Below, in pieces: positions 1-18,625 of a stretch of 36,543 bases of DNA (the first letter of the stretch is position 1; every line of letters starts with the position of its first letter). The DNA lies in the NCBI GenBank assembly GCA_902778275.1, contig CACYXE010000017.1, positions 1-36,543 of the forward strand, in the 5' to 3' direction. The position numbers and the translations under genes are program-made. The DNA comes from Oscillospiraceae bacterium (lineage in GTDB: Bacteria > Bacillota > Clostridia > Oscillospirales > Oscillospiraceae). A model generated the notes under the pieces. It was not told the DNA's origin, did not search any database, and saw only the letters and a program-made list of their open reading frames with translations.

Positions 1-470
1 CGGAAAACTATGAGATCGCCTCCGCCGCCACCAGCACGGAGGAGATCGGCAGCCCGGTCTATCCCCCGGTGCGCCGCCTGCTCAATGAGCACGGCATCGA
101 CTGCTCGGGCAAGACCGCCCGGCAGATCCGCCGCAGCGATTATGAGTATTACGATCTGCTCATCGGCATGGACGAGGAGAATCTCTGGAACATGCGCCGT
201 CGCTTTGGCGGCGATCCGGCAGGGAAGCTGCGCAACATGCTGGAGTACGCGGGCCGGCCCCATGACGCCATCCCGGACCCCTGGTACACCCGGGACTTCG
301 TCAGCGCCTGGGACGATATCTATGAGGCCTGTCTGGGTATGCTGGAGGCCCTGTCCGACACGGTCCTGCTGGACTTCCTGGTACGGGGAAAACCTGGACG
401 CCCTCTACGACGTGCTCACCGGGCTTCCCCACAAGGGGCGCCGCTTCGTGATCACCATGCCGGAGGATGA
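1..470 (+). CDS. Low-molecular-weight protein tyrosine phosphatase, 5' cut by window, 3' end out-of-frame fusion
   Basis: Reading from base 3, the frame gives the body and C-terminal part of an LMW-PTP: the IGSPVYPP segment, the conserved IGMDEEN segment, and the DPWYTRDF loop carrying the catalytic general-acid Asp. The N-terminal CX5R phosphate loop lies left of the window. The family normally ends just after the helix read here as IYEACLGMLEAL (near base 357), but this frame runs on for about 35 residues with no family resemblance and stops at 468-470. The extra tail is out-of-frame reading of a barstar-like gene, so the normal stop appears lost by a deletion. The role would be dephosphorylation of phosphotyrosine proteins in the cytoplasm. 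The family call is firm; whether the product works is unknown. Confidence 0.8.
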   Translation, partial: ENYEIASAATSTEEIGSPVYPPVRRLLNEHGIDCSGKTARQIRRSDYEYYDLLIGMDEENLWNMRRRFGGDPAGKLRNMLEYAGRPHDAIPDPWYTRDFVSAWDDIYEACLGMLEALSDTVLLDFLVRGKPGRPLRRAHRASPQGAPLRDHHAGG

Positions 471-570
471 CGCGCCCGCCGAGGTGCGGCTCTACGCCCG
501 GCGGATCCTCAAGGTCTTCAAGGTGGCCGGGTCCGAGCTGGTCCTCCCGGAGGAGGTTGAGACGCCGTGA
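379..570 (+). pseudogene. Barstar-like fragment missing its N-terminus
   Basis: In the frame starting at base 1, residues from 379 read WYGENLDALYDVLTGL and continue to a TGA at 568-570 (about 63 residues). The W/YYGxNLDAL motif is the hallmark of the barstar (barnase-inhibitor) family, and the remaining length matches the rest of that roughly 90-residue fold. The first strand and its start codon are absent: upstream of 379 the same frame is nonsense, while the phosphatase frame is coding. The simplest reading is a deletion that removed the phosphatase stop and the barstar start and joined the two genes out of frame. An assembly error is the alternative. A barstar would bind and inhibit a cytoplasmic RNase; no RNase gene is visible in the window. 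Confidence 0.65.
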
Positions 571-1142
571 GTGAAAAACAGATCGTTCTTGCGGGCGGCT
601 GTTTCTGGGGCATGGAGCGGCTGTATCGGGGCCTGCCCGGCGTGCTGGACGCCACCGTGGGCTATGCCAACGGAGACGCGGAGAGCCATGCCGACTATGA
701 GACCGTTTGCACCGGCTTCACCGGCTTTCGGGAATCGCTGTATCTGCGTTACGATCCCACGCGGATCTCTTTGCGAAAGCTGCTGTTTTTCTTTTTCGCC
801 GTGATCGACCCCACCATGTTCAACCGTCAGGGCATGGACATCGGCACCCAGTACCAGACAGGTATCTACTGGCTGGATGAGGAGGCCGAAGCGGAGGTCC
901 TTGCCGTGGCCGCCATGGAACGCGCCGCCCGCCGGGAATTCTATGTGGAGCTGAAGCCGCTGGAGAACTTTTATCCGGCGGAAGAATATCACCAGCGCTA
1001 TCTGGAAAAGAACCCGGACGGCTACTGCCACATTTCTCCGGCCAGGATGGCCGCTCTGCGGCGCTATCCCTACCGGGATGAACTCTATACCGTCCCCGCC
1101 GCCGAATTGCTGGCGGCATACCGAAAACAGACGGAAGAATAA
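567..1142 (+). CDS. msrA: Peptide methionine sulfoxide reductase MsrA
   Basis: Reduces the S-epimer of methionine sulfoxide in proteins and free methionine, using thioredoxin-type reductants in the cytoplasm. The N-terminus carries the MsrA signature GGCFWGMERLY with the catalytic cysteine at residue 12, and GYANGD, FNRQGMDIGTQYQTGIY and the Tyr/Glu-rich substrate pocket follow in order. At 191 residues it is a normal MsrA domain without a fused MsrB. The start is a GTG whose GTGA overlaps the stop of the upstream barstar fragment, with GGAGGAGG at about 548-555, so translational coupling to the upstream gene is likely. A strong terminator follows directly. Confidence 0.95.
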   Translation: MSEKQIVLAGGCFWGMERLYRGLPGVLDATVGYANGDAESHADYETVCTGFTGFRESLYLRYDPTRISLRKLLFFFFAVIDPTMFNRQGMDIGTQYQTGIYWLDEEAEAEVLAVAAMERAARREFYVELKPLENFYPAEEYHQRYLEKNPDGYCHISPARMAALRRYPYRDELYTVPAAELLAAYRKQTEE

Positions 1143-1150
1143 ACGACGCC

Positions 1151-1187
1151 AACACGCGGGAGTCAGTCTGCTCCCGCGTGTTTTTGC
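1151..1187 (+). terminator. Rho-independent terminator after msrA
   Basis: An 11-bp perfect stem (1152-1162 with 1171-1181) is followed by a run of five T residues. Confidence 0.9.
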
Positions 1188-1215
1188 TTTACATCACAGA
1201 CGCTTATGATACAAT
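1188..1215 (+). promoter_or_regulatory. Sigma-A promoter for the PI-PLC-like gene
   Basis: TTTACA at 1188-1193, a 16-bp spacer and TACAAT at 1210-1215, placed just after the msrA terminator and about 37 bp before the start codon. The ribosome binding site is ACGGAGGT at 1238-1245. Confidence 0.7.
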
Positions 1216-1251
1216 AGAAGGCAGGAAACCGCAAAGAACGGAGGTCGGGTC

Positions 1252-2262
1252 ATGTTCGGAAAGAGAAAGCGAAACCGGGGCAGCTTCTTTCTGTGGGCGG
1301 TGTTTGCCCTCATGATGCTGTTGATCCTGCTGGTGTCGGTGCTGTTGGTCGTGCCCCTGCTGGAGCGGGGAGACCGCACCGCAGTGGACGGCTCCGCAGC
1401 CTGGATGGCCCGGCTGGACGACGGGCTCCCGCTCAACCGGCTGACCATCCCGGGCACCCACGACAGCGCCACCCAATACGTGCAGCTGGCCTTTTTCTCC
1501 AAATGCCAGGCCTTGAGCGTGGGCGAGCAGCTGGAGGCAGGCTTCCGCTATCTGGATATCCGCCTGGGCGAGGACGGGGAAGGCGGTTTGAAGCTGATGC
1601 ACGGCTTCACCGACTGCAAGACCGGCTTCGGCCCTCAGAGCGAGGTCCTGACCCTGGACGCTGTGCTGGAGCAGTGCTACGGCTTTCTGGCCGCCCATCC
1701 CACAGAGACGGTGCTCTTTGCGGTCAAGCAGGAGCACGGGGAATTGAGCGTGGCGGAGTTCCAGACCTTGCTGGACGGCTATATCCAAAAGGCGCCCAAC
1801 GGCTGGCTGCTCACCGACAGCGTCCCAAGCTTGGGACAGGCCCGGGGCAAGCTGATCCTGCTGCGCCGCTATGCCGACGAGGCCGGGCTGGGCAGCCGGG
1901 CGGGCATCCCCTTTCTATGGCCGGATCAGCCCGGGACGGAGGACCGCTCCCTGAACACCGCCGCCAGCGACAACGGCGGCTATACCCTTTGGGTGCAGGA
2001 TCGCTTTGAATACGACAGCGCGGATAAATGGAACGCCTTCCGCGCCGGCATGGACAACGGGGCCGGCGTCAAGGATATCTCCCTGAACTTTTTAAGCACC
2101 AAGGGCAGCCAGACCTACGGACATCCCTATCGTTACGCCCGGGTGCTGAACACCCGGCTCCTGGGGACGGCTCTGCCGGCCGGCAGCTTCCACGGCTGGA
2201 TCGTGGTGGATTTCGGCAGCGCCCCCCTGGCCAGCCATATCTACCGAGCCAATTTCGGATGA
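1252..2262 (+). CDS. Membrane-anchored phosphatidylinositol-specific phospholipase C-like protein
   Basis: 336 residues: a basic N-terminus, one membrane segment at about 12-37 (signal anchor, catalytic part outside), then a PI-PLC X-type barrel. Family residues visible are the first catalytic His in TIPGTHDSA (His70-Asp71), Arg104 in YLDIRLGED, and the second His117 in LMHGF, followed by the HPTETVLFAVKQEHG strand that parallels the bacterial PI-PLC strand ending in KKE. Bacterial PI-PLCs cleave phosphatidylinositol or GPI lipids by an inositol cyclic-phosphate mechanism; the substrate here cannot be told from sequence. The gene has its own promoter, and its stop is followed closely by an MGMT-family gene that may be cotranscribed. 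Confidence 0.85.
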   Translation: MFGKRKRNRGSFFLWAVFALMMLLILLVSVLLVVPLLERGDRTAVDGSAAWMARLDDGLPLNRLTIPGTHDSATQYVQLAFFSKCQALSVGEQLEAGFRYLDIRLGEDGEGGLKLMHGFTDCKTGFGPQSEVLTLDAVLEQCYGFLAAHPTETVLFAVKQEHGELSVAEFQTLLDGYIQKAPNGWLLTDSVPSLGQARGKLILLRRYADEAGLGSRAGIPFLWPDQPGTEDRSLNTAASDNGGYTLWVQDRFEYDSADKWNAFRAGMDNGAGVKDISLNFLSTKGSQTYGHPYRYARVLNTRLLGTALPAGSFHGWIVVDFGSAPLASHIYRANFG

Positions 2263-2280
2263 ATGCGCCATGTAGTCATT

Positions 2281-2613
2281 ATGGAAAACAGCTTTGAAAA
2301 AATCTATGCCGTCGTCCGGCGCATCCCCTTCGGCCGCGTCACCAGCTACGGACAGATCGCCCGCATGCTGGGCGATCCCCGCATGTCCCATGTGGTGGGC
2401 TACGCCATGCACGCGGCGCCCGATCCCCTGCCCTGCCACCGGGTAGTCAACCGTTTCGGCGGCCTGAGCGACGCCTTCTCCCCGGCCGGCAAAGAGACCC
2501 ATCGGCTGCTGCTGGAGATGGAGGGCGTGACCTTCACGCCCGACGGCTGCGTAGATATGCCCCATTTTTTCTGGGACGGCAGCGAGGAAGCGGAACAGAC
2601 GCTTGATTCGTAA
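2281..2613 (+). CDS. MGMT-family (alkyltransferase DNA-binding domain) protein
   Basis: About 110 residues that correspond only to the C-terminal winged-helix domain of O6-alkylguanine-DNA alkyltransferases: the IPFGRVTSYGQIA recognition-helix region and PCHRVV, with the acceptor-type Cys52. Alkyltransferase-like (ATL) proteins of the same size usually carry Trp at that position, so this protein keeps the residue needed for suicidal transfer but lacks the N-terminal domain. It could be a minimal repair enzyme or a lesion-binding protein. I start at the ATG at 2281 because homologs begin with xxxFFExVYxVV; an in-frame ATG at 2263 directly abuts the preceding stop. Neither start has a clear ribosome binding site. 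Confidence 0.85.
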   Translation: MENSFEKIYAVVRRIPFGRVTSYGQIARMLGDPRMSHVVGYAMHAAPDPLPCHRVVNRFGGLSDAFSPAGKETHRLLLEMEGVTFTPDGCVDMPHFFWDGSEEAEQTLDS

Positions 2614-2631
2614 ATTCCAATCTGCTATAAT
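2603..2631 (+). promoter_or_regulatory. Sigma-A promoter for the DivIVA-like gene
   Basis: TTGATT at 2603-2608, a 17-bp spacer and a consensus TATAAT at 2626-2631. It overlaps the 3' end of the MGMT-family gene, so the downstream gene can be expressed independently. Confidence 0.85.
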
Positions 2632-2673
2632 CGACAGAGAACGACAGGGCTTGCGGCGCAGCGGGAGAATAAA

Positions 2674-3201
2674 ATGGCACTGGATAAAGAGTACTTCGAC
2701 GCGATCCATATCGACGTCGTAAAGAAAAAATACTATAACGCCAACAAGGTGGAGGCCGTTTTCGAGGACATCCGCCGGGAAGCGGCCGCCCTCATCCAGG
2801 AGAACGAGCGGCTGCGGCAGGAGTTGAACGCCCGCTCCAGTCATCGGGAGGAGCTGCGGGAGTCCGTGATCTCCGCCCAGGCGATCTATCAGCGGATCAT
2901 CGAAAAGGCCCAGCTGCGGGCCGATGCCATTTTGAGCAAGGCACGGCAGGAGAGCGAGGAGATCCGCCGCAACAACGAGGCCCAGCAGGATCTGGCCGTC
3001 AAACAGTTGGAGGCCTGTCTGAGCCGTGTCCGCCAGCTGCAGGAAGCCGCCATTGAGGAGATCAATACCCAGTGGCAGAATTTCCTGATTGGCCTGTACC
3101 CCGAGGAGGAGCCCGATTCCGACAAGGTTCCTGCGGACCTGTCGGACAAAGTAGGCAGCATCGCCCGTGAACTCCGGGCCATCAACCGCTCCGATGATTA
3201 A
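2674..3201 (+). CDS. DivIVA-like coiled-coil protein
   Basis: 175 residues, strongly helical and charged. A long coiled coil runs from about residue 25 to 135 (heptads in EDIRREAAALIQENERLRQE and in the following segments), and a short acidic tail with an AREL helix ends the protein. The order resembles DivIVA/GpsB-type scaffolds of Gram-positive bacteria, which mark membrane curvature or organise division and wall synthesis, but the N-terminal lipid-binding motif of classical DivIVA is not clear, so it is a DivIVA-domain-like protein at best. No membrane segment or signal peptide is seen. The gene has its own consensus promoter and terminator and is monocistronic. Confidence 0.6.
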   Translation: MALDKEYFDAIHIDVVKKKYYNANKVEAVFEDIRREAAALIQENERLRQELNARSSHREELRESVISAQAIYQRIIEKAQLRADAILSKARQESEEIRRNNEAQQDLAVKQLEACLSRVRQLQEAAIEEINTQWQNFLIGLYPEEEPDSDKVPADLSDKVGSIARELRAINRSDD

Positions 3202-3211
3202 AACATATATT

Positions 3212-3249
3212 AAAAGCCCAGACTGACCCTCGTCAGTCCGGGCTTTTAT
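3212..3249 (+). terminator. Rho-independent terminator after the DivIVA-like gene
   Basis: GCCC-A-GACTGA at 3216-3226 pairs with TCAGTC-C-GGGC at 3233-3243 (one internal mismatch), followed by TTTTATT. Confidence 0.85.
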
Positions 3250-3353
3250 TGTCCCGCGGCGGGCTGGTCCGGCGGACCGGCAAAGTGATCAGCGCAAGCA
3301 AGAAACCATTTGCAAGAATACCGGATGAGGAACGGAGAAAGAAAGGAGTAATT

Positions 3354-4628
3354 ATGGATCAAAACATATACAACAGCTATCTGGATATCCTGGAAGAAGA
3401 GTTGGTCCCGGCTATGGGCTGTACCGAGCCCATAGCCGTTGCCTACGCGGGGGCGCTGGCCCGGCAGACGCTTGGCGCCGAGCCGGAGCGCACGGTGTTG
3501 ACGGTCAGCGGCAACATCATCAAAAATGTAAAAAGTGTGATCGTCCCCCACACCGGCGGGCGAAAGGGACTGCGTACCGCCGTGGCGGCCGGCATCTGCT
3601 TCGGCCAGGCTGACAAGGAACTGGAAGTGCTGTCCGAGGCCACAGAGGAGCAGCTCAAAGAGCTGGACGCCTGGCTCAGCAAGGCGGAGATCGAGCTCCG
3701 GGACTCCAGCGCCAACTGTCCCTTTGATCTGCACGTGGAACTGTTCCGGGGCAATGACAGCGCCTATGTGCATATCATCGGCCACCACACCAATGTGGTT
3801 TGCATCCGCCGCAACGAGGAGATCCTGTTTTCCAAGCCCTTCTCCGACGACGCGGTACAGGCCCCGGAGAACCGCAGCCTGCTGAACGTGGAGGACATCG
3901 TGGCCTTTGCCGACTGCGTGGAGATCGACCGGGTCAAAGACCTGCTGCAGCGGCAGATCGACTACAACCTGGCCATCGCGGAGGCAGGCCTCACCGGGGA
4001 ATATGGCGCGGCCATCGGCAAGATCCTGCTGCTCTCCTACGGCAACAGCGTGCAGAACCGGGCCAAGGCCTGGGCTGCCGCCGGATCTGACGCCCGTATG
4101 GACGGCTGCGAGCTGCCTGTGGTCATCAACTCCGGCAGCGGCAACCAGGGGCTCACCGCCTCCGTGCCGGTGATCGTCTACGCCCGGGAGTGCGCCGTCT
4201 CCGACGAGATGCTGTATCGGGCCCTGGTGGTCTCCAATCTGGTGACCATCCATCTGAAGACCGGCATCGGCAGCCTCTCCGCCTACTGCGGCGCCACCAG
4301 CGCAGGCGCCGGGGCGGGCGCCGGCATCTGTTATCTGTATGGCGGCAAATATAAGGAGATCGCACACACCATCGTCAACGCCCTGGCCATCAACTCCGGC
4401 ATGATCTGCGACGGCGCCAAGGCCAGCTGCGCCGCCAAGATCGCCTCCGCGGTGGAGGCGGGCATGCTGGGCATGCGCATGAACATGCACGACAGCCAGT
4501 TCTACGGCGGCGACGGCATCGTGGTCAAGGGCGTGGAAAACACCATCCGCGCCGTCAGCGTCATCGCCCGGGACGGCATGCGCAGCACCGACAAGGAAGT
4601 CATCCGTCTTATGATGGAAAACGAGTGA
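3354..4628 (+). CDS. L-cysteine desulfidase family protein (CyuA/YhaM-like, Fe-S dependent)
   Basis: 424 residues, full length for the CyuA/YhaM (UPF0597, serine-dehydratase-alpha-like) family, which breaks L-cysteine to pyruvate, ammonia and sulfide with a labile [4Fe-4S] cluster. Candidate cluster cysteines are Cys23 in the signature PAMGCTEP, Cys312 in SAYCGATSAG, and Cys352 and Cys359 in MICDGAKASC. The ATG at 3354 is preceded by AAAGGAG; upstream in-frame codons lack family resemblance. About 170 bp downstream lies a LysR gene in the same orientation. PGAP-style annotation often calls such proteins L-serine ammonia-lyase alpha subunit, but the MGCTEP start and single-chain length favour the desulfidase group. 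Substrate preference, cysteine or serine, is not decided by sequence. Confidence 0.85.
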   Translation: MDQNIYNSYLDILEEELVPAMGCTEPIAVAYAGALARQTLGAEPERTVLTVSGNIIKNVKSVIVPHTGGRKGLRTAVAAGICFGQADKELEVLSEATEEQLKELDAWLSKAEIELRDSSANCPFDLHVELFRGNDSAYVHIIGHHTNVVCIRRNEEILFSKPFSDDAVQAPENRSLLNVEDIVAFADCVEIDRVKDLLQRQIDYNLAIAEAGLTGEYGAAIGKILLLSYGNSVQNRAKAWAAAGSDARMDGCELPVVINSGSGNQGLTASVPVIVYARECAVSDEMLYRALVVSNLVTIHLKTGIGSLSAYCGATSAGAGAGAGICYLYGGKYKEIAHTIVNALAINSGMICDGAKASCAAKIASAVEAGMLGMRMNMHDSQFYGGDGIVVKGVENTIRAVSVIARDGMRSTDKEVIRLMMENE

Positions 4629-4636
4629 GTTTTATC

Positions 4637-4686
4637 AACGGCGAAGGGGCCGGGACTGCTTGTACAGCCCCAGCCCCTTCGCCGTT
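4637..4686. other. Long perfect hairpin between the desulfidase and lysR
   Basis: Fourteen bases (4637-4650) pair perfectly with 4673-4686, and the 22-base loop can extend the stem further (GGG-A-CTG with CAG-CCC). No T-run follows on either strand, so it is not a classical intrinsic terminator. It may be a factor-dependent terminator, an RNA-stability element or a protein site. Confidence 0.6.
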
Positions 4687-4802
4687 AAACGTGTTGCAAA
4701 CGAGCTTGCATGAAAGGGAAAACGCTCATAAATAAGGATAAGGAAACAGATACCGCATTTTCTGCATCCTGTATCTATCCGGCATGTGCAAGGGAGGGCG
4801 TA

Positions 4803-5747
4803 ATGGAACGAGATCTTGAGTATACTTACACGGTCTATAAGACCGGCAGCTTCTCAAAGGCGGCGGATTTTCTCTACACGACCCAGCCCACCGTGAGCAT
4901 GGCCGTGCAGCGGGTGGAAGAAGACATCGGCAGTCAGATTTTTGACCGGAAGGCAAAACCGCTGCGGCTGACGGAGGCCGGACAACAGCTGATGAAGCAC
5001 ATCGAGCGCGTCCGTGAATCGGAACTGCTTCTGCATGGGGAGCTGGACCGATTAAAGCATCCGGAAACCAGACGGCTGCGTATCGGCTGTACGCCGGTCC
5101 ACGCCCATTACCTGTTCCCGGAGGTCCTCTCCAAATTCAGGGAGCTGGCGCCGGACGTGGAGATCACTCTCATCAACGGGGTCCCGTGGGAGATGAACCG
5201 GGATCTGCGGGATTTCAAGATCGACATCGCGGTAAACATCATGTCGGAAACGGACCCGACGGATTTTCTGTATATTCCGGCGTTTGTGGTCCGCTACCTG
5301 CTGGCGGTGCCCCCCGCTTTTCCGATCAACGAGGAACTGAAGGCATACGCGTTTACGGCCGAGGAGGTCGTAAGCGGCAAAGCGCTGAGCCCCCAGGGGC
5401 CCTTTGTCCCCATCTCCGCTTTTCAAGACATACCGTTTGTCGATTTCACCGAGGGAAGCGAGTTTTACGAGCAAAGCAGAAAGATCGCCGACGAGTGCGG
5501 CTTTATGCCGCGCACCAGCCTGTCGGTCTACAACCCGTCCATGGCGCAGGAACTGGCCAAAGTGGGAATGGGTGCGACCCTCACAAGCAACTACATGGTC
5601 AAAAAAGGCTCTCCCCTGCTGTACTACCGGCTGCGTACCGCCTGGGAAGAGAGGGCCTTCTATTTCGTCCTGCGGAAGGATTATTCCATACAGGAACATC
5701 AGAAGCTGTTTCTGAAAACCTTTCTGGATGTTCTGGACGGAAAATAA
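4803..5747 (+). CDS. LysR-family transcriptional regulator
   Basis: 314 residues with the LysR layout: an N-terminal winged helix-turn-helix (residues 1-60, including SFSKAADFLYTTQPTVSMAV and the wing through FDRKAKPLRLTEAG), a linker helix, and a periplasmic-binding-like effector domain from about residue 88 (RRLRIGCTPVHAHYLFPEVL). It binds DNA as an oligomer and responds to a small ligand. The start ATG at 4803 follows AGGGAGGGCG; the longer frame from 4710 has no ribosome binding site and gives nonsense. It ends tail-to-tail, 22 bp from the TDT transporter gene. Plausible targets are the upstream desulfidase or the TDT/cooS intergenic region; neither is shown by the sequence. Confidence 0.92.
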   Translation: MERDLEYTYTVYKTGSFSKAADFLYTTQPTVSMAVQRVEEDIGSQIFDRKAKPLRLTEAGQQLMKHIERVRESELLLHGELDRLKHPETRRLRIGCTPVHAHYLFPEVLSKFRELAPDVEITLINGVPWEMNRDLRDFKIDIAVNIMSETDPTDFLYIPAFVVRYLLAVPPAFPINEELKAYAFTAEEVVSGKALSPQGPFVPISAFQDIPFVDFTEGSEFYEQSRKIADECGFMPRTSLSVYNPSMAQELAKVGMGATLTSNYMVKKGSPLLYYRLRTAWEERAFYFVLRKDYSIQEHQKLFLKTFLDVLDGK

Positions 5748-5769
5748 ACAGACGCTGCGCGCAATGGCG

Positions 5770-6690
5770 TCAAACGGCGGCCTTCTCCCGCGCAAACAGG
5801 AACTGGCAGTATTTCCACGCGGTAAAGCCGCAAAAGACAAGGGCAGACGCGATTTCCACCTGGATCAGAAACCGCAGGGAAGCGGTGACGGTCAGGAACG
5901 CGGCTGCCCTTTTGCATGCCGTCGCCACGATCACGAAGGGGAAGGAAAAGGCTGCGAAGGAAGGCGCAAACGGGTCCCGAAACGTTTGAAAGAAGCGAAA
6001 CAGCGCCGGGATATACAGGAGCTGTGAGAGGAGCAGCAATCCCAGGACCAGCGGTCCGGAAGGCTGCGGCGCGACGCTCAAATACCCGACCAGCCAGATG
6101 CTGACCGGCGCCGCGGTAATACAGAACAAGGGGCGCTGCGGCTGCGGGATCGGTGCAAGATGATCGGCACGGCAGACCAGCGGAAGCAGAACGACAGCGC
6201 CCAGCGCGGCGGGGATCAGCAGGATCCTGCCGACGGTCTCCGCGGAAAAAGCGGGCGCTGAGATCGCGGCGGCGGCGATGCCCACATAGACCAGCAGCCA
6301 GCTGCCGCGCACATCGGAGAGGGCGGTACGCTCCCGCAGGAGCTTCACGCTGAAGGCGATTATGAGCGCAAGGTGGAGCAGCAGGCCGGCGCCCCAGTAC
6401 AGGGCGGCGATCCGCAGATGCAGGACTGTGCGCATAGGCGCTGCCGTCAGCATCATGGCCATACTGGTTCCCGCCAGTGTGCTCAGGGAGGCGCGGTCGG
6501 CATACAGGCGCTTCAGGCTTCCGGAGCGCAGCAGCTTCATAAGCACGCAGATCTGGATCGCGAAAGAAAGCAGCCCGAGAAGAAAAAGAAACAGCCGGGA
6601 ATAGGCGCCCAGCAGCGTGCCCAGACCGATCAGGCCAAGGGCGACACAGCCGGCCGGGATCGGAAGTCGGTTCCAGCAATTGCGGAGCAT
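5770..6690 (-). CDS. TDT-family (TehA/SLAC1-like) anion transporter
   Basis: 306 residues, almost entirely hydrophobic, with about ten membrane helices. The opening LPIPAGCVALGLIGLG matches the PxPMxGLALGLxALG start of the tellurite-resistance/dicarboxylate transporter (TDT) family, and PVSIWLVGYLSV matches its APxSICLVGYL helix. Members act as anion channels or efflux carriers for dicarboxylates, sulfite or tellurite. GGTAAGGAGGTGAT directly precedes the ATG, an excellent ribosome binding site. The gene is divergent from cooS and shares a compact, AT-rich control region with it, so it may export or import an anion linked to CooS function. Substrate is unknown. Confidence 0.85.
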   Translation of the reverse strand: MLRNCWNRLPIPAGCVALGLIGLGTLLGAYSRLFLFLLGLLSFAIQICVLMKLLRSGSLKRLYADRASLSTLAGTSMAMMLTAAPMRTVLHLRIAALYWGAGLLLHLALIIAFSVKLLRERTALSDVRGSWLLVYVGIAAAAISAPAFSAETVGRILLIPAALGAVVLLPLVCRADHLAPIPQPQRPLFCITAAPVSIWLVGYLSVAPQPSGPLVLGLLLLSQLLYIPALFRFFQTFRDPFAPSFAAFSFPFVIVATACKRAAAFLTVTASLRFLIQVEIASALVFCGFTAWKYCQFLFAREKAAV

Positions 6691-6714: not shown

Positions 6715-6743
6715 AGTATATCGCGTCCCGGGGCAAATGTCAC
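6715..6743 (-). promoter_or_regulatory. Promoter for the TDT transporter gene
   Basis: On the minus strand GTGACA (complement of 6738-6743), a 17-bp spacer and TATACT (complement of 6715-6720). The -35 box lies inside the left arm of the 9-bp inverted repeat described next. Confidence 0.7.
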
Positions 6744-6794
6744 ATCAATAGTATTTATGCCACTATTTGTTTATACAATTTGACCGATGTGACA
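6738..6794. promoter_or_regulatory. Nested inverted repeats between the divergent TDT and cooS promoters (candidate operator)
   Basis: A perfect 9-bp inverted repeat, TGTCACATC at 6738-6746 and GATGTGACA at 6786-6794, spans 57 bp. Inside it is a second perfect dyad, AATAGT at 6747-6752 and ACTATT at 6762-6767. The left outer arm contains the TDT -35 box; the right outer arm lies in the cooS spacer. The arrangement suggests one regulator bridging both promoters. TGTGA/TCACA-like arms are reminiscent of Crp/Fnr sites and the inner dyad of LysR sites, but neither has the standard spacing. Confidence 0.6.
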
Positions 6795-6808
6795 AAGAAT
6801 GAGATAAT
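6780..6808 (+). promoter_or_regulatory. Sigma-A promoter for cooS
   Basis: TTGACC at 6780-6785, a 17-bp spacer and GATAAT at 6803-6808, 40 bp before the cooS ATG. GAGGAGG at 6835-6841 is the ribosome binding site. Confidence 0.8.
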
Positions 6809-6848: not shown

Positions 6849-8867
6849 ATGAGCGAGCATATGCACACCCATGTTGACCAATTCGGCAACATCATGGAAC
6901 ACTGCCATCACCACGATGTCGACGACATCACCGACTACAACGAGGCTGTAAACGCCTACCGCAAGACCTTCCCCAACAAGCAGAGAGTGATCGACGAGAC
7001 CCCGGACCCGGCCGTGAAGGCCATGCTGCTGCGCATGGAGCAGCTGGGCATCGACAACGCCTTCGATCGTTTCGACAAGCAGCAGCCCCAGTGCAACTTC
7101 GGCCTGGCCGGCATCTGCTGCCGCATCTGTCATATGGGTCCATGCCGCATCACCAAGAAAAGCCCGCGGGGCGTCTGCGGCGCCGACGCTGACCTGATCG
7201 TGGCCCGCAACCTGCTGCGCGCCGTGGCCGCCGGCACCGCGCAGCACGGCATGCACGCCAGAGAAGTGATCCTCTCCCTGAAGTGGGCCGCCGAGGGCAA
7301 GCTGCCCCTGCCCATCCTGGGCGAAGAGAAGATGCTGGCCACCGCCGCCGCCTGGGGCATCCCCACGGAGGGCCGCAGCGTCAACGAGGTCGCCATAGAC
7401 TTTGCCAACGTGCTGCTGGCCGACCTGTCCCGTCCGGAGGCCACCGAGGAATACCAGACCATCAAGTTCGGCGCGCCGCCCGAGCGGCAGCAGGTCTGGA
7501 AGGATCTGGACATCATGCCCATCTCCACCTATCATGAGGTCTTTGAGTCCATGCACAACTCCGGCGAGGCCACCGACGGTGACTGGAAGAACATCATGAA
7601 GCAGTTCCTGCGCACCGGCCTGACCTTCGTGTTCGGCACGGTGGTGGACACCAACCTGGCCACCGACTCCCTGTTCGGCGTGGGCCAGCGCAGAAAGACC
7701 ATGGTCAACATCGGCGCTCTGAAAAAGAACAGCGTCAACATCGCCGTGCACGGCCACATGCCCACCCTGGTCAGCGAGATCGTCCGTCTGGGCCAGAGCG
7801 AGGAGTACATCGAGAAGGCCAAGGCCGTGGGCGCCGACGGCATTCAGTTCTACGGCATCTGCTGCACGGGCCTGTCCGCCATGTACCGCTACAACAACGT
7901 CATCCCCCTGTGCAATCCTCCCGGAGCGGAGCTGGTGCTCTCCACCGGCGCGCTGGATCTGTGGGTCGCCGACGTGCAGGACATCTATCCCTCCATCATG
8001 AACGCGGCCAACTGCTTCAAGACCGTGGTCGTCACCACTGAGGATTCCACCAAGCTGCCCGGCGCCGAGCATATCGCCTATGACCACACCCACTCCAACA
8101 TCGGCGAGACCACCGAGATCGCCCGCAGGATCGTGGAGCGCGGCATCGAGAGCTTTGTTGCCCGCAAGGGAATCTCCAAGTTCATCCCGCCCTACGAGGT
8201 GGAGGCCGAGCTGGGCTTCAGCGTGGAGAGCGTGACCAAGGATCTTGGCGGCAGCTTCCAGCCTTTGGCCGACGCTCTCAAGAGCGGTCAGATCCGCGGC
8301 GTCGTGAACCTGGTGGGCTGCACCAATCCCAAGACCGTCTATGAGCGCTGCATCGTGGATGTGGCGGACATCCTTCTGAAGAACAACATCCTCATCCTCA
8401 CCAACGGCTGCGCCTCCTTCCCGCTGCTGAAGCTGGGCTACTGCAACATGGAAGCCGTGGAGACCAAGTGCGGCGAGGGGCTCAAGGCTTTCCTGAAGGA
8501 ACACAACATGCCGCCGGTGTGGCACGTTGGTGAATGCGTGGACAACACCCGCTCTACCGGCATCCTGGTGGGCGCGGCCAGCCTGCTGGGCAAGGCCCTG
8601 CGTGAGATGCCCTACGCCCAGTCCAGCCCCGAGTGGGCCAATGAGAAGGGCGTCGGCGCCGCTCTGGCCTTCCGCCTGCTGGGTCTGAACTCCTACCACT
8701 GCGTGGAACCGCAGGCCTTCGGTTCCGAGAACGTCATGCGCTTCCTCAAAGAGGACACCGGCAAGATGGGCCTGGGCGTCATGGTGGTCGACACCGATCC
8801 GCAGGTCCTTGGCAATCGCATCGTATCCGACTTTGAAGCCAAGCGCAAAGCCCTCGGCTGGGATTGA
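6849..8867 (+). CDS. cooS: Anaerobic carbon-monoxide-dehydrogenase-type catalytic subunit CooS, C-cluster variant
   Basis: 672 residues with the full CooS fold. The D/B-cluster cysteines are present at Cys82, 90, 91, 94, 99 and 110 (GICCRICHMGPCR). Against the C-cluster ligands of Carboxydothermus CODH-II (His261, Cys295, 333, 446, 476, 526, with Lys563), the matches are His301 (VHGH), Cys339 (GICCTG), Cys491 (VGCTNP), Cys521 (TNGCAS), Cys563 (GECVDN) and Lys600. At the Cys333 position, canonical YQCIMPS, this protein reads VQDIYPS: Asp378, with exactly the expected 113-residue distance to Cys491. It may therefore not hold the normal Ni-Fe-S cluster. CooS-V of Carboxydothermus, also lacking one ligand Cys, holds an Fe/S/O hybrid cluster, does not oxidise CO, and slowly reduces hydroxylamine. 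The N-terminus is His-rich (residues 4-22). No cooC, cooF, acs or hydrogenase gene is nearby. Confidence 0.9.
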   Translation: MSEHMHTHVDQFGNIMEHCHHHDVDDITDYNEAVNAYRKTFPNKQRVIDETPDPAVKAMLLRMEQLGIDNAFDRFDKQQPQCNFGLAGICCRICHMGPCRITKKSPRGVCGADADLIVARNLLRAVAAGTAQHGMHAREVILSLKWAAEGKLPLPILGEEKMLATAAAWGIPTEGRSVNEVAIDFANVLLADLSRPEATEEYQTIKFGAPPERQQVWKDLDIMPISTYHEVFESMHNSGEATDGDWKNIMKQFLRTGLTFVFGTVVDTNLATDSLFGVGQRRKTMVNIGALKKNSVNIAVHGHMPTLVSEIVRLGQSEEYIEKAKAVGADGIQFYGICCTGLSAMYRYNNVIPLCNPPGAELVLSTGALDLWVADVQDIYPSIMNAANCFKTVVVTTEDSTKLPGAEHIAYDHTHSNIGETTEIARRIVERGIESFVARKGISKFIPPYEVEAELGFSVESVTKDLGGSFQPLADALKSGQIRGVVNLVGCTNPKTVYERCIVDVADILLKNNILILTNGCASFPLLKLGYCNMEAVETKCGEGLKAFLKEHNMPPVWHVGECVDNTRSTGILVGAASLLGKALREMPYAQSSPEWANEKGVGAALAFRLLGLNSYHCVEPQAFGSENVMRFLKEDTGKMGLGVMVVDTDPQVLGNRIVSDFEAKRKALGWD

Positions 8868-8983: not shown

Positions 8984-9022
8984 AAACGCCCTGTTTTCGT
9001 CTAACGAAAACAGGGCGTTTTT
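8984..9022. terminator. Rho-independent terminator between cooS and the hydrolase
   Basis: A 16-bp perfect stem (8984-8999 with 9005-9020), followed on the plus strand by TTTTT. It ends cooS transcription and can also serve the convergent hydrolase gene. Confidence 0.85.
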
Positions 9023-10228: not shown

Positions 10229-11287
10229 TTATTTTGACAGCGCATAAAGATCGCCGAATTCTTTGACCAGCTGGTTATATTCATCGCTGCCCGCATATAC
10301 CATGTCGTGACCGCTGCCGCGTCTGTCATGTGCGGAAACCAGCTGATCTCCCCAGAAGTAGAAGGTCACAGCCGGTGAGCTCCCCTTGACATAGGCTTCC
10401 GCGTAGAACAACAAGCCATCGGCATAATAAAACCCGATCGTATATCCTGAGCTGTGGTTGTTTATATGCGACGAGGTGTACCAGGATCTGTGATTGCCGG
10501 AGGAATCTTTCCGAGCATAATATGTCTGTACATCCACATCCTTTTTCTGCACGTCAGAATAAGCGACACCGTCGATCAGATTTTCTCTCAAGGCCTTCCC
10601 ATATGGGGACTCCGGATACCTGGGTATGCTGAAGGACGGGGCCGGCTTGGGTGTCGGCGCGGGAGTAGGCTTGGGTGTCGGCGCAGGCGTCGGCTTGGGC
10701 GTGGGCGCAGGCGTCGGCGCGGGCGTCGGGGCCGGCGTCGGTGTGTCATCCACCAGGTATACTGTCAACGTTTTTGTAAAGCTGTCGCAGATGACGTGCA
10801 GCTTCACGCCGCCCTCTTTTGCCCCCAGCATGACGCAGGTGCAGCTTTGGGTATCGTTTGAAGGCACCAGTCTCAACAGATTGTCATCCTCGCTGATCCA
10901 CGTAAATGTTGCATCCGCATACTTCTCCGACGGATATGCAGCGGCCGTCAGCACTACCGGGTCATCGCTCTTATGCATCGTGAAGTCCGTTCGGATCTCG
11001 TTGTTGAAATTGTATACTCGGATCTCCGTTACTTCCGCGGGTATAATTACGCTTGAGGATGAAGACGACACAGTTTCCACAGAAGGCACGGGCGAAGGCG
11101 CTGCTCCCTCGGGTTTCCCGGGATCCCTGTGAGCGAATTTCCAAAGGGAAAACACAACGGCAAGCGCCAGAACGCCTGTAATGATCGCAAAGATGAGCTG
11201 CATATCGGGATGCTTGGGCGGAATTTGGTCTTCATTCTCGAGAGATTTGCGTCTCTCCTCTCTATCATATGTGCTGATGCGTACCAC
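10229..11287 (-). CDS. Membrane-anchored extracellular protein with Big2-like domain and Pro/Thr linker
   Basis: Up to 352 residues. A charged N-terminus is followed by one membrane helix (about 30-49), a Ser-rich stalk (70-80), an Ig-like bacterial Big2-type domain (about 81-180: IPAEVTEIRVYN, LTAAAYPSEKYADATFTW, then LTVYL), a TPAPTPKP linker (182-217), and an unrecognised 135-residue C-terminal domain rich in Tyr, Ser and Gly. The orientation is predicted as inside N-terminus, outside remainder. The start is unsure: the GTG at 11287 sits directly inside GGAGGTG, too close to serve as both ribosome binding site and start; Met29 would cut into the pre-membrane segment. The role is probably at the cell surface; function is unknown. 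Confidence 0.75.
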   Translation of the reverse strand: MVRISTYDREERRKSLENEDQIPPKHPDMQLIFAIITGVLALAVVFSLWKFAHRDPGKPEGAAPSPVPSVETVSSSSSSVIIPAEVTEIRVYNFNNEIRTDFTMHKSDDPVVLTAAAYPSEKYADATFTWISEDDNLLRLVPSNDTQSCTCVMLGAKEGGVKLHVICDSFTKTLTVYLVDDTPTPAPTPAPTPAPTPKPTPAPTPKPTPAPTPKPAPSFSIPRYPESPYGKALRENLIDGVAYSDVQKKDVDVQTYYARKDSSGNHRSWYTSSHINNHSSGYTIGFYYADGLLFYAEAYVKGSSPAVTFYFWGDQLVSAHDRRGSGHDMVYAGSDEYNQLVKEFGDLYALSK

Positions 11288-11336
11288 CTCCGAAAGTTAC
11301 GAAAATGAGAACGGCATTTTCCCTGCAATTTTTTAC

Positions 11337-11365
11337 ATTTTATCACAATCCGGGAAAATACTCAA
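11337..11365 (-). promoter_or_regulatory. Sigma-A promoter for the surface-protein gene
   Basis: On the minus strand TTGAGT (11360-11365), a 17-bp spacer and TAAAAT (11337-11342), about 50 bp before the presumed start. Confidence 0.7.
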
Positions 11366-11413
11366 TCGGTTTTGCCCATTTTCAAGTTTTTTGGTGCAGA
11401 AAAACAAATAAAC

Positions 11414-11450
11414 AAGAGCCGACTGATCAAAACATAATCAGTCGGCTCTT
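11414..11450 (-). terminator. Terminator downstream of guaA
   Basis: A 14-bp perfect stem (11414-11427 with 11437-11450), followed on the minus strand by a T-rich tract. It lies about 140 bp after the guaA stop. Confidence 0.8.
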
Positions 11451-11586
11451 ATTCGATCGAGGATACAAAGAGACTGCCGCAAAACACAGGTATTAGTCTG
11501 GTTTTACTATGTTGTTTTAGGCTGTCACAAGCTCATTCGATTTGTCATTTTCAGGCTCATCGTGAGTGTCACGCGACGACGGAAAA

Positions 11587-12567
11587 TCACTCCCACTCGA
11601 TGGTTCCGGTCGGCTTCGGCGTCAGGTCATAGAGCACGCGGTTGACGCCCGCCACCTCATGGGTGATACGGTCGGTGATGTGCTGCAGCAGGGCGAAGGG
11701 CACGTCCTCCACTGTGGCGGTCATGGCGTCTCGGGTGTTGACGGCGCGGATGACCACGGGCCAGTCATAGGAGCGCAGACCCTCCTTCACGCCGGTGGAC
11801 TTGAAGTCCGGCACGATGGTGAAATACTGCCACACCTTCCCGGCCAGGCCGTTCTTGGCAAACTCCTCCCGCAGGATGGCGTCGGATTCCCGCACGGCCT
11901 CCAACCGGTCGCGGGTGATGGCGCCCACACAGCGTACGCCCAGGCCGGGGCCGGGGAAGGGCTGACGATAGACCATGCCGTCGGGCAGGCCCAGCTCCTT
12001 GCCCACCACGCGTACCTCGTCCTTGAACAGGAACTTCAGCGGCTCCACCAGCTCAAACTGCAGATCCTCCGGCAGACCGCCCACATTGTGGTGGGCCTTC
12101 ACCGGGCCGCTCTCCAGGATGTCCGGATAGATGGTTCCCTGGGCCAGGAACTCGATGCCGTCCAGCTTGCGGGCTTCCTCCTCAAACACGCGGATAAACT
12201 CCGCGCCGATGATCTTGCGCTTGGCTTCCGGGTCGGCCACGCCGGCCAGCTTGTCCAGAAAACGGTCCACCGCGTCCACATAGACCAGGTTCGCGTTCAT
12301 CTGGTTGCGGAACACCTCGATGACCTGCTCGGGCTCGCCCTTGCGCAGCAGGCCGTGGTTGACGTGCACGCAGGTCAGCTGCTTGCCCACCGCCTTGATG
12401 AGCAGGGCCGCCACCACGGAGGAGTCCACGCCGCCGGACAGGGCCAGCAGCACCTTCTTATCGCCGATCTGCTCCCGCAGCGCGGCAAGCTGCTCGTCGA
12501 TGAAGGCTTTCGCCAGTTCAGGGGTGGTGATACGCTCCATGTTCTCCGGACGTTTGTTATCTGCCAT
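11587..12567 (-). CDS. guaA: GMP synthase, ATP-pyrophosphatase and dimerisation domains only
   Basis: Converts XMP to GMP in purine biosynthesis: the ATP-PPase domain adenylates XMP and ammonia displaces AMP. The PP-loop is [10 protein letters not shown] (residues 42-51), followed by HVNHGLLR, the QGTIYPD motif, HHNVGGLP, the [12 protein letters not shown] segment and the C-terminal dimerisation domain ending [16 protein letters not shown]. At 326 residues it lacks the roughly 190-residue N-terminal class I glutaminase domain of normal bacterial GuaA. It therefore resembles the archaeal two-subunit form (GuaAb), which needs a separate glutamine amidotransferase or free ammonia. No such subunit is in the window. 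AGGAGGAAC precedes the ATG, and the sequence upstream of it is non-coding, so the short form is not an artefact of start choice. Confidence 0.93.
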
Positions 12568-12602
12568 AGAAAGTTCCTCCTGTATCTTTTTTCGTCGGAA
12601 AT

Positions 12603-12631
12603 ATTATAGCTTGCCTGCGGCCCTCGCGCAA
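12603..12631 (-). promoter_or_regulatory. Promoter for guaA
   Basis: On the minus strand TTGCGC (12626-12631), a 17-bp spacer and a consensus TATAAT (12603-12608), about 36 bp before the ATG. Confidence 0.65.
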
Positions 12632-12748
12632 CAAAAACTTGCGCCGCCCTTGAGAAAGCAGGACGGCGGCGGGCCGTCCCCAGGCATCCGGTGCCGCCGG
12701 GGCCTTTGAAAATACTTGGGTTTTCCCTTAAGCATGCGAATTTTCGGC

Positions 12749-14154: not shown

Positions 14155-15096
14155 TTATTTGCCTTTGTAATAATGCTTCTCGGAATTGAGCATGGCGCTG
14201 CAGGTGGCCAGGGACAGATAGGTCTGCTCCGGGGGATCGCTGCGGCCGCTGATGGCGATGGGGATATTACAGCCCACCAGGATGCCGAAGCCGGTAGCCT
14301 TGGCGTTGCGCTGCAGGACCTTGACCAGCAGGTTGCCGGACATCAGATTGGGCACCACGATACCGTCGAATTCGCCGCAGTAGGGGCAGTCGTAATTCTT
14401 CAGGCGGGCAGCCTCCTTGCTGACGATCAGGTCATAGGAGATGGGGCCTACCAGGTTGCAGTCGGCGATGGGACGCATCTTGTGGTTGCGGACGATGGTC
14501 TGATCCTCCACGGTGTCGCGCATCTGGAAGCTGGGGGTCTCCACCAGGGACAGCAGGGCGATGTTGGGAGTCGTGATCTCAAAGACGCTCAGAGCCTTGA
14601 CCATGTTCTTGGCCACTTCCACGCGGGCGTCGGCCGGGGGATTGATCAGCAGCGTCACGTCGGAGATGGCCATCACCTTCTCGTACTCGGGCACTTTCAG
14701 GAACACCACATGGGTGACCAGCTCATCTTCTCTGACCAGGTGGTTGGCCCGGTTGAGAACGGGCATCAGGAAATCGCGGGTCTGGGTATTGCCGCGCACC
14801 AGGCAGTCCGCGCTGCCGGCCTTGATCATCTCGATGGCAAACTGCACCACATTGGTGTCGTCGGGCACCGGCTGCAGCACATAGTCCCGCTCGGTCATGC
14901 CCAGCCGCTCGATCACGGCCATGATTTTCGCCTCGTTGCCGATCAGGATGGGCTCCACAAAGCCGTCCTCCTGGGCGTCGAACACGCCCTTCAGGATGTT
15001 CTCGGCATCCGCGCCGGCAACGGCCACGCGCATGACCTTCTTGCCCGCCTTGGCTTTCTCCACGATGCCGGCAAATTCTTTTTCAAAATAGTCCAT
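14155..15096 (-). CDS. Phosphate acetyl/butyryltransferase family protein
   Basis: 313 residues of the PTA_PTB family, which interconverts acyl-CoA and acyl phosphate. The fold is recognised from AVAGADAENILKGV at the start, the EPILIGNEAKI strand, ADCLVRGNTQTRDFLMPVLN (substrate loop), the ISDVTLLINP strand, and the C-terminal GFGILVGCNIPIAISGRSD phosphate-binding region. Size and the RxDP segment suit a phosphate butyryltransferase or the similar stand-alone domain of bifunctional enoyl-CoA hydratase/phosphotransferases. No butyrate or acetate kinase gene is adjacent, so the pairing and acyl chain are unknown. An unusual CPYCGEF motif (CxxC) lies before the conserved DGIVVPNLMSG segment. 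GAAGGAG precedes the ATG. Confidence 0.88.
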   Translation of the reverse strand: MDYFEKEFAGIVEKAKAGKKVMRVAVAGADAENILKGVFDAQEDGFVEPILIGNEAKIMAVIERLGMTERDYVLQPVPDDTNVVQFAIEMIKAGSADCLVRGNTQTRDFLMPVLNRANHLVREDELVTHVVFLKVPEYEKVMAISDVTLLINPPADARVEVAKNMVKALSVFEITTPNIALLSLVETPSFQMRDTVEDQTIVRNHKMRPIADCNLVGPISYDLIVSKEAARLKNYDCPYCGEFDGIVVPNLMSGNLLVKVLQRNAKATGFGILVGCNIPIAISGRSDPPEQTYLSLATCSAMLNSEKHYYKGK

Positions 15097-15144
15097 TACG
15101 ATATTCTCCTTCGTTAAGCTTTATTCCGAACTCGATGTGATCAT

Positions 15145-15173
15145 ATTCTATCATCCGCGGCACCACATTACAA
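15145..15173 (-). promoter_or_regulatory. Promoter for the phosphate acyltransferase-like gene
   Basis: On the minus strand TTGTAA (15168-15173), a 17-bp spacer and TAGAAT (15145-15150), about 50 bp before the ATG. Confidence 0.65.
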
Positions 15174-15183
15174 GGGAAAACCG

Positions 15184-15237
15184 CAGTTTTGGCGAAAGAA
15201 AACTGACTTTTGCCGCCCCCTTGGGGCCTTGGCGGCA
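15184..15237 (-). terminator. Weak terminator-like hairpins after tagA
   Basis: TGCCGCC (15211-15217) pairs with GGCGGCA (15231-15237). A second hairpin, CAGTTTT (15184-15190) with AAAACTG (15199-15205), follows on the minus strand. The T-run is poor. Confidence 0.4.
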
Positions 15238-15250
15238 GTTCGCTGCCCGA

Positions 15251-15982
15251 TCAATCCCGCCGGTCCAGGCCGCCGATGCGGCGCACCTTGCCCAGGAAGC
15301 GCACATTGCTGCGGAAGAAGCGGCCGAAGCGCTTGGGCTCCTTGGCGATCCGGTACAGCCACTCCAGATTCAGCTTCAGGAAGATCTCCGGCGCCCGCTG
15401 CTTTTGGCCGCTGAGCACGTCGAAGGAACCGCCCACGCCGACGAACACGCCCTTGTCGAACTCGTCGAGCCAGCGGGCGATCAGCAGCTCCTGCCGGGGC
15501 ACGCCCAGGGCCACCAGCACCAGATCCGGCCGCTGCTCCAGCACGTCCCGGAACACCGCGTCGTCCTCATGGTCATAGCCGTTTTTCGCGCCTGCGATCA
15601 CAGCGCCGGGCACCTCTGTCCCGATGCGTCTGACCAGCGCCTGCAGCACTTCCTCCCTGGCACCGTACAGGTAAATGCGCCGGCCCGTCTGCCCCGCGTG
15701 ACAGATCAGCTCCCAGGCCAGCTCCACACCGGTCACCCGGCCGGGCAGTTCCAGCCCCAGGCCGCGCGCCGCCCGGACCACGCCGATCCCGTCGGGCACG
15801 ATGGTAGCCGCATCCGAGCAAAGCACCGCGTCCAGCTCCGGCGTCGCCTGGGCGATCATCATGACCTCCGGGTTGGCCGTCACCACGAACAGTCGTTCCT
15901 CCCGATCCATGGCCCCGTCGGCCAGCCGGAAAAAGTCTGCCTGGCTGCCGGTATACAGTTTTTCAAAATAGTCCTTCAGCAT
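15251..15982 (-). CDS. tagA: WecG/TagA/CpsF-family glycosyltransferase (probable ManNAc transferase)
   Basis: 243 residues, full length for the GT26 family. TagA transfers ManNAc from UDP-ManNAc to undecaprenyl-diphosphate-GlcNAc, an early step of teichoic-acid-type wall polymer synthesis at the inner membrane face. Signature parts in order are VVTANPEVMMIA, the catalytic-Asp loop IVPDGIGVV, GVELAWELI, RIYLYGAREEVL, LVLVALGVPRQELLI and GVGGSFDVLSGQKQRAP, then a basic C-terminal tail (IAKEPKRFGRFFRSN) of the kind that contacts the membrane. It lies 11 bp downstream of wecB, which makes its donor substrate, so the pair is an operon with matched function. No tagB/tagF or flippase is seen in the window. 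Confidence 0.92.
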   Translation of the reverse strand: MLKDYFEKLYTGSQADFFRLADGAMDREERLFVVTANPEVMMIAQATPELDAVLCSDAATIVPDGIGVVRAARGLGLELPGRVTGVELAWELICHAGQTGRRIYLYGAREEVLQALVRRIGTEVPGAVIAGAKNGYDHEDDAVFRDVLEQRPDLVLVALGVPRQELLIARWLDEFDKGVFVGVGGSFDVLSGQKQRAPEIFLKLNLEWLYRIAKEPKRFGRFFRSNVRFLGKVRRIGGLDRRD

Positions 15983-15993
15983 AGCCGTGTTCC

Positions 15994-17106: not shown

Positions 17107-17151
17107 ATCGTCCTCTTTCCGCCCGGCCTGTCCGGGCGTTTCGTTTTTCCT

Positions 17152-17180
17152 ATTATACTATGCCGCCGCCCGGGTTTCAA
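17152..17180 (-). promoter_or_regulatory. Sigma-A promoter for wecB-tagA
   Basis: On the minus strand TTGAAA (17175-17180), a 17-bp spacer and TATAAT (17152-17157). This is close to consensus. Confidence 0.85.
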
Positions 17181-17202
17181 CAAATGAATTTTTTGCCCAG
17201 GC

Positions 17203-17230
17203 GCAACCGGATCGCTTTTTCCGGTGTTAG
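17203..17230 (+). promoter_or_regulatory. Candidate ECF-type autoregulated promoter of the sigma operon
   Basis: GCAACC at 17203-17208 resembles the ECF -35 element (GGAACC/TGAAAC type), with TGTTAG 16 bp further on. A perfect 6-bp dyad, ACCGGA (17206-17211) and TCCGGT (17220-17225), lies across the spacer. TATAAG at 17231-17236 is an alternative -10 without a good -35. Confidence 0.35.
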
Positions 17231-17273
17231 TATAAGTGAAAGGCCTTTCAAGACAACACAAGGAGGTGAATGC

Positions 17274-18583: not shown

Positions 18584-18594
18584 CGAAGGCCCAG

Positions 18595-18625
18595 GGCCGC
18601 GGAGAAGTACTCCGCGGCCTTTTTT
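18595..18625 (+). terminator. Rho-independent terminator of the sigma operon
   Basis: A 10-bp perfect stem (18595-18604 with 18610-18619) with a five-base loop, followed by six T residues. Confidence 0.92.

Follow-up and report, generated by a model that had tools for sequence, protein, structure and literature searches.

Groups B-1 to B-3 of the clade B carbon monoxide dehydrogenases (CODHs) have been defined by an Asp or Glu residue at one cysteine position of the C-cluster (Inoue et al. 2019; PMC6344411, Table 2). As described there (PMC6344411), B-1 proteins have Asp or Glu along with a His-rich N-terminal region containing 4 to 48 His and His-X-His repeats, B-2 proteins have Asp, B-3 proteins have Asp along with a C-terminal His-rich region and B-4 proteins have Cys. 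Of 1380 putative CODH genes in the human gut, 493 belong to clade B (PMC11338639). In the survey of Bohm and Land 2026 (PMC13056359) the neighbors of clade B genes are mainly ATP-binding cassette (ABC) transporters (64%) or none (24%), and maturases are confined to a small early-branching cluster. Here we describe a cooS gene within a stretch of 36,543 nucleotides from an Oscillospiraceae bacterium (assembly GCA_902778275.1, contig CACYXE010000017.1, positions 1 to 36,543 of the forward strand), which in its full length is called the window in the following. Judged by its sequence the gene product is a member of the already described B-1 group, and the Asp at the position of Cys333 of CODH-II (Carboxydothermus hydrogenoformans, clade F) is itself not new. 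We consider it rather probable that the protein has a nickel-containing C-cluster with an Asp ligand and acts on CO/CO2 or something close. The gene and its two characteristic parts are the following:

6849..8867, + strand: cooS, coding for a CODH-like protein of 672 amino acids, clade B, structural group B-1 (open reading frame (ORF) call, TIGR01702 profile, phmmer, position map, tree)

6849..6926, + strand: His-rich N-terminal extension, residues 1-26, with 7 His between residues 4 and 22 (sequence)

7980..7982, + strand: GAC codon of Asp378, at the position of Cys333 of CODH-II (alignment)

The ORF starts with ATG and its product matches the TIGR01702 profile with 515 bits (cut-off 478). 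In the position map the D-cluster cysteines (C82, C90) and the B-cluster cysteines (C91, C94, C99, C110) are present, as are five of the six C-cluster ligands, H303, C339, C491, C521 and C563, which correspond to H261, C295, C446, C476 and C526 of CODH-II. The exception is D378, which takes the position of C333. The acid-base pair is kept as well (H133 and K600, equal to H93 and K563). The protein thus shares with CODH-II the fold, most C-cluster ligands, the B- and D-cluster cysteines and the acid-base pair, but differs by Asp for Cys333 and Ala for Ile567, by an identity of 32-33% in structure alignments and in that no CooC, CooF or hydrogenase genes were recognized next to the window cooS. 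These results confirm what the initial annotation had claimed, namely that the B- and D-cluster cysteines and five C-cluster ligands are present, that Asp378 stands at the Cys333 position, where our alignment of 74 rows indeed puts Asp and not Cys, and that the spacings to the following ligands are 113, 30 and 37 residues. Four features which describe group B-1 are found: Asp378 at the second C-cluster cysteine, the His-rich N-terminus including HMHTH and HCHHH, the type II D-cluster motif Cys-(X)7-13-Cys-Cys in the form C82-X7-C90-C91, and a complete set of remaining C-cluster ligands and acid-base residues.

In the four structure chains among the phmmer matches listed (6t7j, 6elq and two CODH-II chains) the residue opposite Asp378 is always Cys. 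A misalignment of Cys333 with a neighboring cysteine was rejected. The nearest downstream cysteine, C389, is no stand-in for Cys333, because it is Cys not only in 26/26 Asp/Glu rows but also in the rows which have Cys333 (10/10 B-4-like rows and 14/15 other complete-motif rows). Likewise a replacement cysteine elsewhere was not found, since the 12 cysteines invariant across the 26 Asp/Glu rows are all found in Cys333-bearing rows too. C618, being Cys in 23 of the 26 Asp/Glu rows (Ser in the other three) and in none of the 48 remaining CODH rows, is enriched in the clade and speaks a little against the absence of a replacement; we do not take it as a ligand, since it is not invariant, though it might be one.

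The 74 rows comprise 26 Asp/Glu rows, 10 Cys-type clade B rows (B-4-like), 23 rows of the D-1 group (CooS-V-type) and 15 other rows with a complete motif. At position 333 there are 24 Asp and two Glu, all within a single clade, and Cys in the other 48 rows. The 26 Asp/Glu rows are monophyletic with a support of 100 in the Shimodaira-Hasegawa-like approximate likelihood ratio test, the only support calculated for this tree, which was built with a quick method and without the published clade B reference sequences among its rows. The residue classes at positions 333 and 295 are explained by three changes on the tree, which is the minimum, and the Asp/Glu at position 333 has a single origin. The initial annotation had proposed to see whether the Asp is conserved in a clade; it is, and this has been published since 2019. 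The 10 Cys rows, which have a distinct N-terminus and fit B-4, branch with the Asp/Glu clade; the program warns that the two branches joined here are long (0.91 and 1.21) and that their union may be spurious. The 23 CooS-V-like rows are placed elsewhere. B-4-like and Asp/Glu rows both have Asn at the position of residue 598, but the B-4-like rows retain Cys333, have Gln instead of Ala at position 567, lack the His tail and lie in a cysK-cooS-ABC operon.

Asp378 is not due to chance or a sequencing slip, because Asp/Glu is conserved in one clade and the ratio of nonsynonymous to synonymous substitution rates (dN/dS) is low. For the window cooS dN/dS is 0.043 and 0.045 against two congeners at a dS of 0.84 and 0.175 against L005; dS is saturated for L004 and L007.

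The relatives came from three sources: named genomes with 21 loci, which favor close relatives as the search patterns were taken from the window protein, 61 genomes of the genus with the own genome included, and a less biased sample of 398 genomes of the phylum with 23 genomes at an E value of 1e-160. Among these 23 genomes nine have Asp, 12 are B-4-like (10 read as Cys, two without a closed ORF) and two have Cys of another type. Left out before counting were L090 and L092 (no closed cooS ORF called), L018 and L019 (cooS in two frames), the partial rows L006, L021, L025 and L026, the duplicates L001, L023 and L024, and L068-L078, which are mostly partial matches. The split gene of L018 and L019 (Selenomonas artemidis and a metagenome-assembled genome of Epulonipiscium) is either a frameshift or an assembly error. 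Within the genus the Asp-type cooS is patchy (4/61 genomes), and it is also found in Helicobacter and Selenomonadaceae, a distribution in line with transfer between lineages. The nearest named relatives include a goat-abomasum genome and genomes of the RUG series, which we take to be from rumen, and the host of the window cooS is a ruminant-gut bacterium.

As replacements for Cys333 only Asp and Glu were observed, and this fits a carboxylate ligand to iron. In CODH-II, Cys333 binds iron and Cys526, the equivalent of Cys563, holds the nickel. We infer that the window protein, a B-1 member of the nickel-CODH family with the usual CODH fold, would most likely build a Ni,Fe,S C-cluster. In this cluster the iron that is bound by Cys333 in CODH-II would have Asp378 as its ligand, and Cys563, which is retained, would hold the nickel; the His-rich tail at the N-terminus of the protein itself, and not CooC, would deliver this nickel. 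Because His133 and Lys600 are retained, the protein is still expected to carry out two-electron reactions with CO/CO2 or with a small molecule much like it, perhaps slowly or with altered specificity, the electrons presumably passing through the B and D clusters.

With regard to the nickel supply, two Asp rows (L081 and L082, loci L125 and L126) lack the His tail, and both adjoin a gene for a CooC relative. The L125 copy matches a solved CooC at 1e-34, the L126 copy shares 57% identity with the L125 copy, and the CYC motif and the P-loop are kept in both. In the 24 remaining Asp/Glu rows the N-terminal extension contains 4 to 49 His. Since the tail-less rows adjoin CooC and the others have the tail, nickel is apparently supplied by either CooC or the His tail. 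The two CooC-adjoining loci may belong to the early-branching maturase cluster mentioned above; the deepest branching order inside the Asp/Glu clade is unresolved in our tree, so that this pair is one of the basal branches and is not shown to be the first. In Clostridium thermobutyricum (L007) a CbiM/CbiQ/CbiO-type importer for cobalt or nickel lies upstream of cooS with a gap of 514 bp. In the own genome, which is 84% complete, there is one CODH and the N-terminal domain of acetyl-CoA synthase (ACS) was not found. In locus L002 from the same genus the Asp-type cooS is followed downstream, at positions 10488-12634, by HypD and by a protein with an AIRS domain, which is probably HypE; these genes were not seen beside the window cooS.

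Several points weigh against a nickel-containing C-cluster loaded by the tail and acting on CO. Just 2 of 28 Asp/Glu loci have an adjacent CooC, and in the own genome the top CooC-like match shows 30% identity and could be an ATPase of the MinD type. HypB says little on the nickel supply, because it was found above the cut-off with or without cooS in 19 of 20 genus genomes tested, the own genome included (the miss, G028, is 57% complete). In the structure model the predicted local distance difference test score (pLDDT) is below 50 for residues 78-107, the loop of the B and D clusters, and for most of the His tail; moreover, the CODH fold cannot tell the cluster type since CooS-V has it too. 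The position of Ile567 of CODH-II is Ala in 26/26 Asp/Glu rows and Gln in 10/10 Cys-type clade B rows, and the changed residue hints at a substrate other than CO; it is Ile in 15/15 other complete-motif rows and Asp in 23/23 D-1 rows. Finally, no clade B CODH has been biochemically characterized yet according to Bohm and Land (PMC13056359).

The window cooS is accompanied by the following genes and sites:

3249..4628, + strand: L-cysteine desulfidase relative, just upstream of the LysR gene (PDB 9he0, 3.6e-26; PF03313)

4710..5747, + strand: LysR-family regulator (profile match; at the same place in the congeneric loci L002, L003 and L006, 51-57% identical)

5770..6690, - strand: SLAC1/TehA-family anion channel, divergent from cooS (PF03595, 32.8 bits, cut-off 27.9; relatives beside other cooS loci)

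6715..6743, - strand: opposing promoter-like site facing the SLAC1 gene (consensus match only)

6780..6808, + strand: sigma-70-like promoter TTGACC-17-GATAAT with TG ahead of the second hexamer (consensus match)

8984..9020, no strand assigned: stem-loop of 17 pairs after cooS, candidate terminator (the scan lists the - strand; on the + strand a T-run follows)

The gene order is therefore desulfidase relative (+), LysR (+), SLAC1 (-) and cooS (+). Because a promoter-like site precedes cooS, an opposing site points towards the SLAC1 gene and a stem-loop follows, the window cooS looks like a transcription unit of its own. Both promoter hexamers are kept in the window and the three congeneric loci aligned; three promoter-like sites were found compared with 0.6 in shuffled sequences, and five terminator-like sites compared with 2.3. 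The initial annotation had stated that no maturation or partner genes are adjacent. For the maturation genes this holds, but the conserved SLAC1 and LysR genes adjoin cooS. Genes for a NitT/TauT ABC transporter, with which clade B has been associated, are not found at the window locus. At positions 14173-20520 of the window there are in addition long ORFs without Pfam matches surrounding an extracytoplasmic function-type sigma factor (17160-17834).

Among the 28 Asp/Glu loci the gene beside cooS belongs to a NitT/TauT ABC transporter in nine, to SLAC1 in seven, to cysK in two, to a major facilitator superfamily transporter in two, to the CbiM system in one and to a second CODH, accompanied by an ACS domain, in one; six have none of these. 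The 28 loci include the near-copies L119/L120, L121/L122, L009/L010 and L014/L022, exclude L006, a locus with LysR and SLAC1 in which cooS extends beyond the contig end, and contain two loci, L003 and L014, whose contigs end soon after cooS. In most gene groups a profile match gave the name of one member, which BLAST clustering extended to the others; the neighbors of L018 were not named. ORFs were picked mechanically; the SLAC1 gene of L005 was masked by a longer overlapping ORF and recovered by BLAST, and other neighbors may be hidden likewise. In the own genus SLAC1 and cooS diverge; in L005, L009, L010 and L124 SLAC1 follows cooS on the same strand. The rows bearing SLAC1 fall in a single region of the tree, so that one gain is possible. 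A search of solved structures gave no match to the SLAC1 protein, and the literature search gave no paper combining CODH and SLAC1.

The locus with the second CODH (L004, Lachnospiraceae bacterium UBA7182, 378-6285) is operon-like and consists of LysR, a complete-motif CooS (1458-3350), an ACS N-terminal domain (3274-4257, 327 aa) and the Asp-type CooS (4279-6285). The match of the stand-alone domain to the ACS frame of L101, which is 728 aa long, is confined to residues 17-312, and the L004 genome contains an additional ACS frame of 725 aa elsewhere. ACS-domain matches occur in 23 of 200 genomes of the family and, apart from that of L004 itself, those listed are in frames of at least 500 aa, bar one frame of 298 aa (G521). 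It seems unusual for an ACS domain to stand free between two CODHs.

The Cys-type clade B loci have a different arrangement. In 10/10 of them (L134, where cooS was not called and a 76% identical cysK is present, is not counted) the order is cysK, cooS, binding protein, permease and ATPase with short gaps, the cysteine synthase gene being 9-192 bp from cooS and the ABC substrate-binding protein on the other side. The CysK of L127 is over its cut-off, and the binding protein of this locus is nearest to 3un6, followed by nitrate, bicarbonate and sulfonate binders. Together with residue 567 this operon is the best ground for suspecting a non-CO substrate, and we regard it as a lead. The corresponding explanation is a nickel enzyme whose substrate would be a small molecule containing sulfur, e.g., carbonyl sulfide, carbon disulfide or thiocyanate, from which sulfide would enter cysteine synthesis while the transporter imports the anion. 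It agrees with the cysteine synthase and binding protein flanking cooS in all Cys-type loci, with the cysK adjoining cooS in two Asp/Glu loci, with the desulfidase relative upstream of the window LysR and with the altered residue 567 in 36/36 clade B rows. We also count for it work by Ensign from 1995, which by its title reportedly deals with carbonyl sulfide, carbon disulfide and the CODH of R. rubrum. However, 26 of the 28 Asp/Glu loci have no cysK adjoining cooS, the desulfidase relative clusters with no gene from the 39 other loci compared, many anions are transported by members of the SLAC1 and NitT/TauT families, and CysK might merely provide sulfide for cluster building. Furthermore, cooS4 of Calderihabitans, with a cysteine synthase and ABC context, was reported to be somewhat higher with CO, not significantly, which rather favors CO (PMC7306483). 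The literature search gave no paper combining CODH, cysteine synthase and carbonyl sulfide. We consider a sulfur-bearing substrate for the window protein unlikely. Similarly doubtful is a wider scenario for the whole of clade B as a non-CO nickel enzyme, likeliest for a sulfur-containing small molecule, which would have arisen in the operon of cysteine synthase and a sulfonate/nitrate-type transporter with the pocket changed from Ile567 to Gln; subsequently the cluster Cys would have become a carboxylate and the pocket Ala, nickel would have been self-loaded via the His tail and in the lineage of the window the importer would have been replaced by the SLAC1 channel.

The initial annotation had compared the protein to CooS-V, which also lacks one ligand cysteine, and had suggested a role in nitrosative stress. 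Such a nickel-free enzyme with a hybrid-type cluster like that of CooS-V or of hybrid cluster protein (HCP) would reduce hydroxylamine or NO. With CooS-V the window protein has in common the CODH fold and the loss of one C-cluster thiolate, and a single substitution is reported to have made a Ni-CODH a hydroxylamine reductase (Heo 2002, as cited in PMC7000372). A Veillonella cooS, whatever its clade, lies near oxyR and nar genes (PMC11338639). The comparison with CooS-V is, however, not borne out, as 23/23 D-1 rows keep Cys333 and differ at other positions. These rows, which form a separate branch, have Glu for Cys295, Tyr for His93, Ser for the D-cluster Cys47 and an additional Glu two residues ahead of Lys563; in CooS-V neither Glu295 nor the His is an Fe ligand (PMC10502027). 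All 26 Asp/Glu rows, on the other hand, keep Cys295, His93 and Lys563 and have Asn two residues ahead of the Lys, and the window protein is without the D-1 hallmarks (Cys339, His133, Asn598 and a D-cluster motif of type II, not type III).

HCP is a distant member of the same superfamily (Prismane, PF03063), but retains the equivalent of Cys333 and two Glu ligands not found in the window protein. Cys261 of HCP corresponds to Cys333, and class III HCP keeps it as well (PMC10502027). Against the HCP profile TIGR01703 the window protein scores 19 bits, far below the cut-off of 360.8. Because the protein departs at three of seven hybrid-cluster ligand positions (Cys339 for Glu, Asp378 for Cys, Asn598 for Glu; ligand list from PMC10502027) and at one of six C-cluster positions, the hybrid-cluster reading is disfavored by the sequence. 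Among the annotated window ORFs (within 10-32818) no nitrogen-oxide gene was recognized, which leaves the nitrosative-stress idea without support there. No HCP was found in the own genome, which could speak for a hybrid-type enzyme. A replacement of HCP by CooS is, however, not supported by the survey of the 61 genus genomes: HCP is above the cut-off in a single genome, which also carries an Asp-type CooS, and a second genome has only a fragment of 33 residues. A paper combining CODH, CooS-V and C-cluster was not met in the literature search. In our opinion a hybrid-type enzyme is improbable. Still somewhat less probable is a degenerate or regulatory CODH-fold protein, i.e., a redox or CO sensor without useful turnover, which would suit the apparent transcription unit of its own (predicted promoter and stem-loop) but not the dN/dS of 0.043-0.045 against two congeners and the acid-base pair and all remaining ligands being invariant in 26 rows.

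A nickel-containing C-cluster with Asp378 as ligand is thus the reading we prefer, and the comparison of residues ranks the assays, with nickel and CO ahead of hydroxylamine. For such assays the window cooS is convenient to express, having apparently its own transcription unit and no maturation genes alongside, and the conserved cysK, ABC, SLAC1 and CooC neighbors point to substrates and helpers to try. Clade B is common in the human gut yet uncharacterized, and a carboxylate in a Ni,Fe,S C-cluster, if true, would be a natural test of which thiolates the CO/CO2 chemistry needs.
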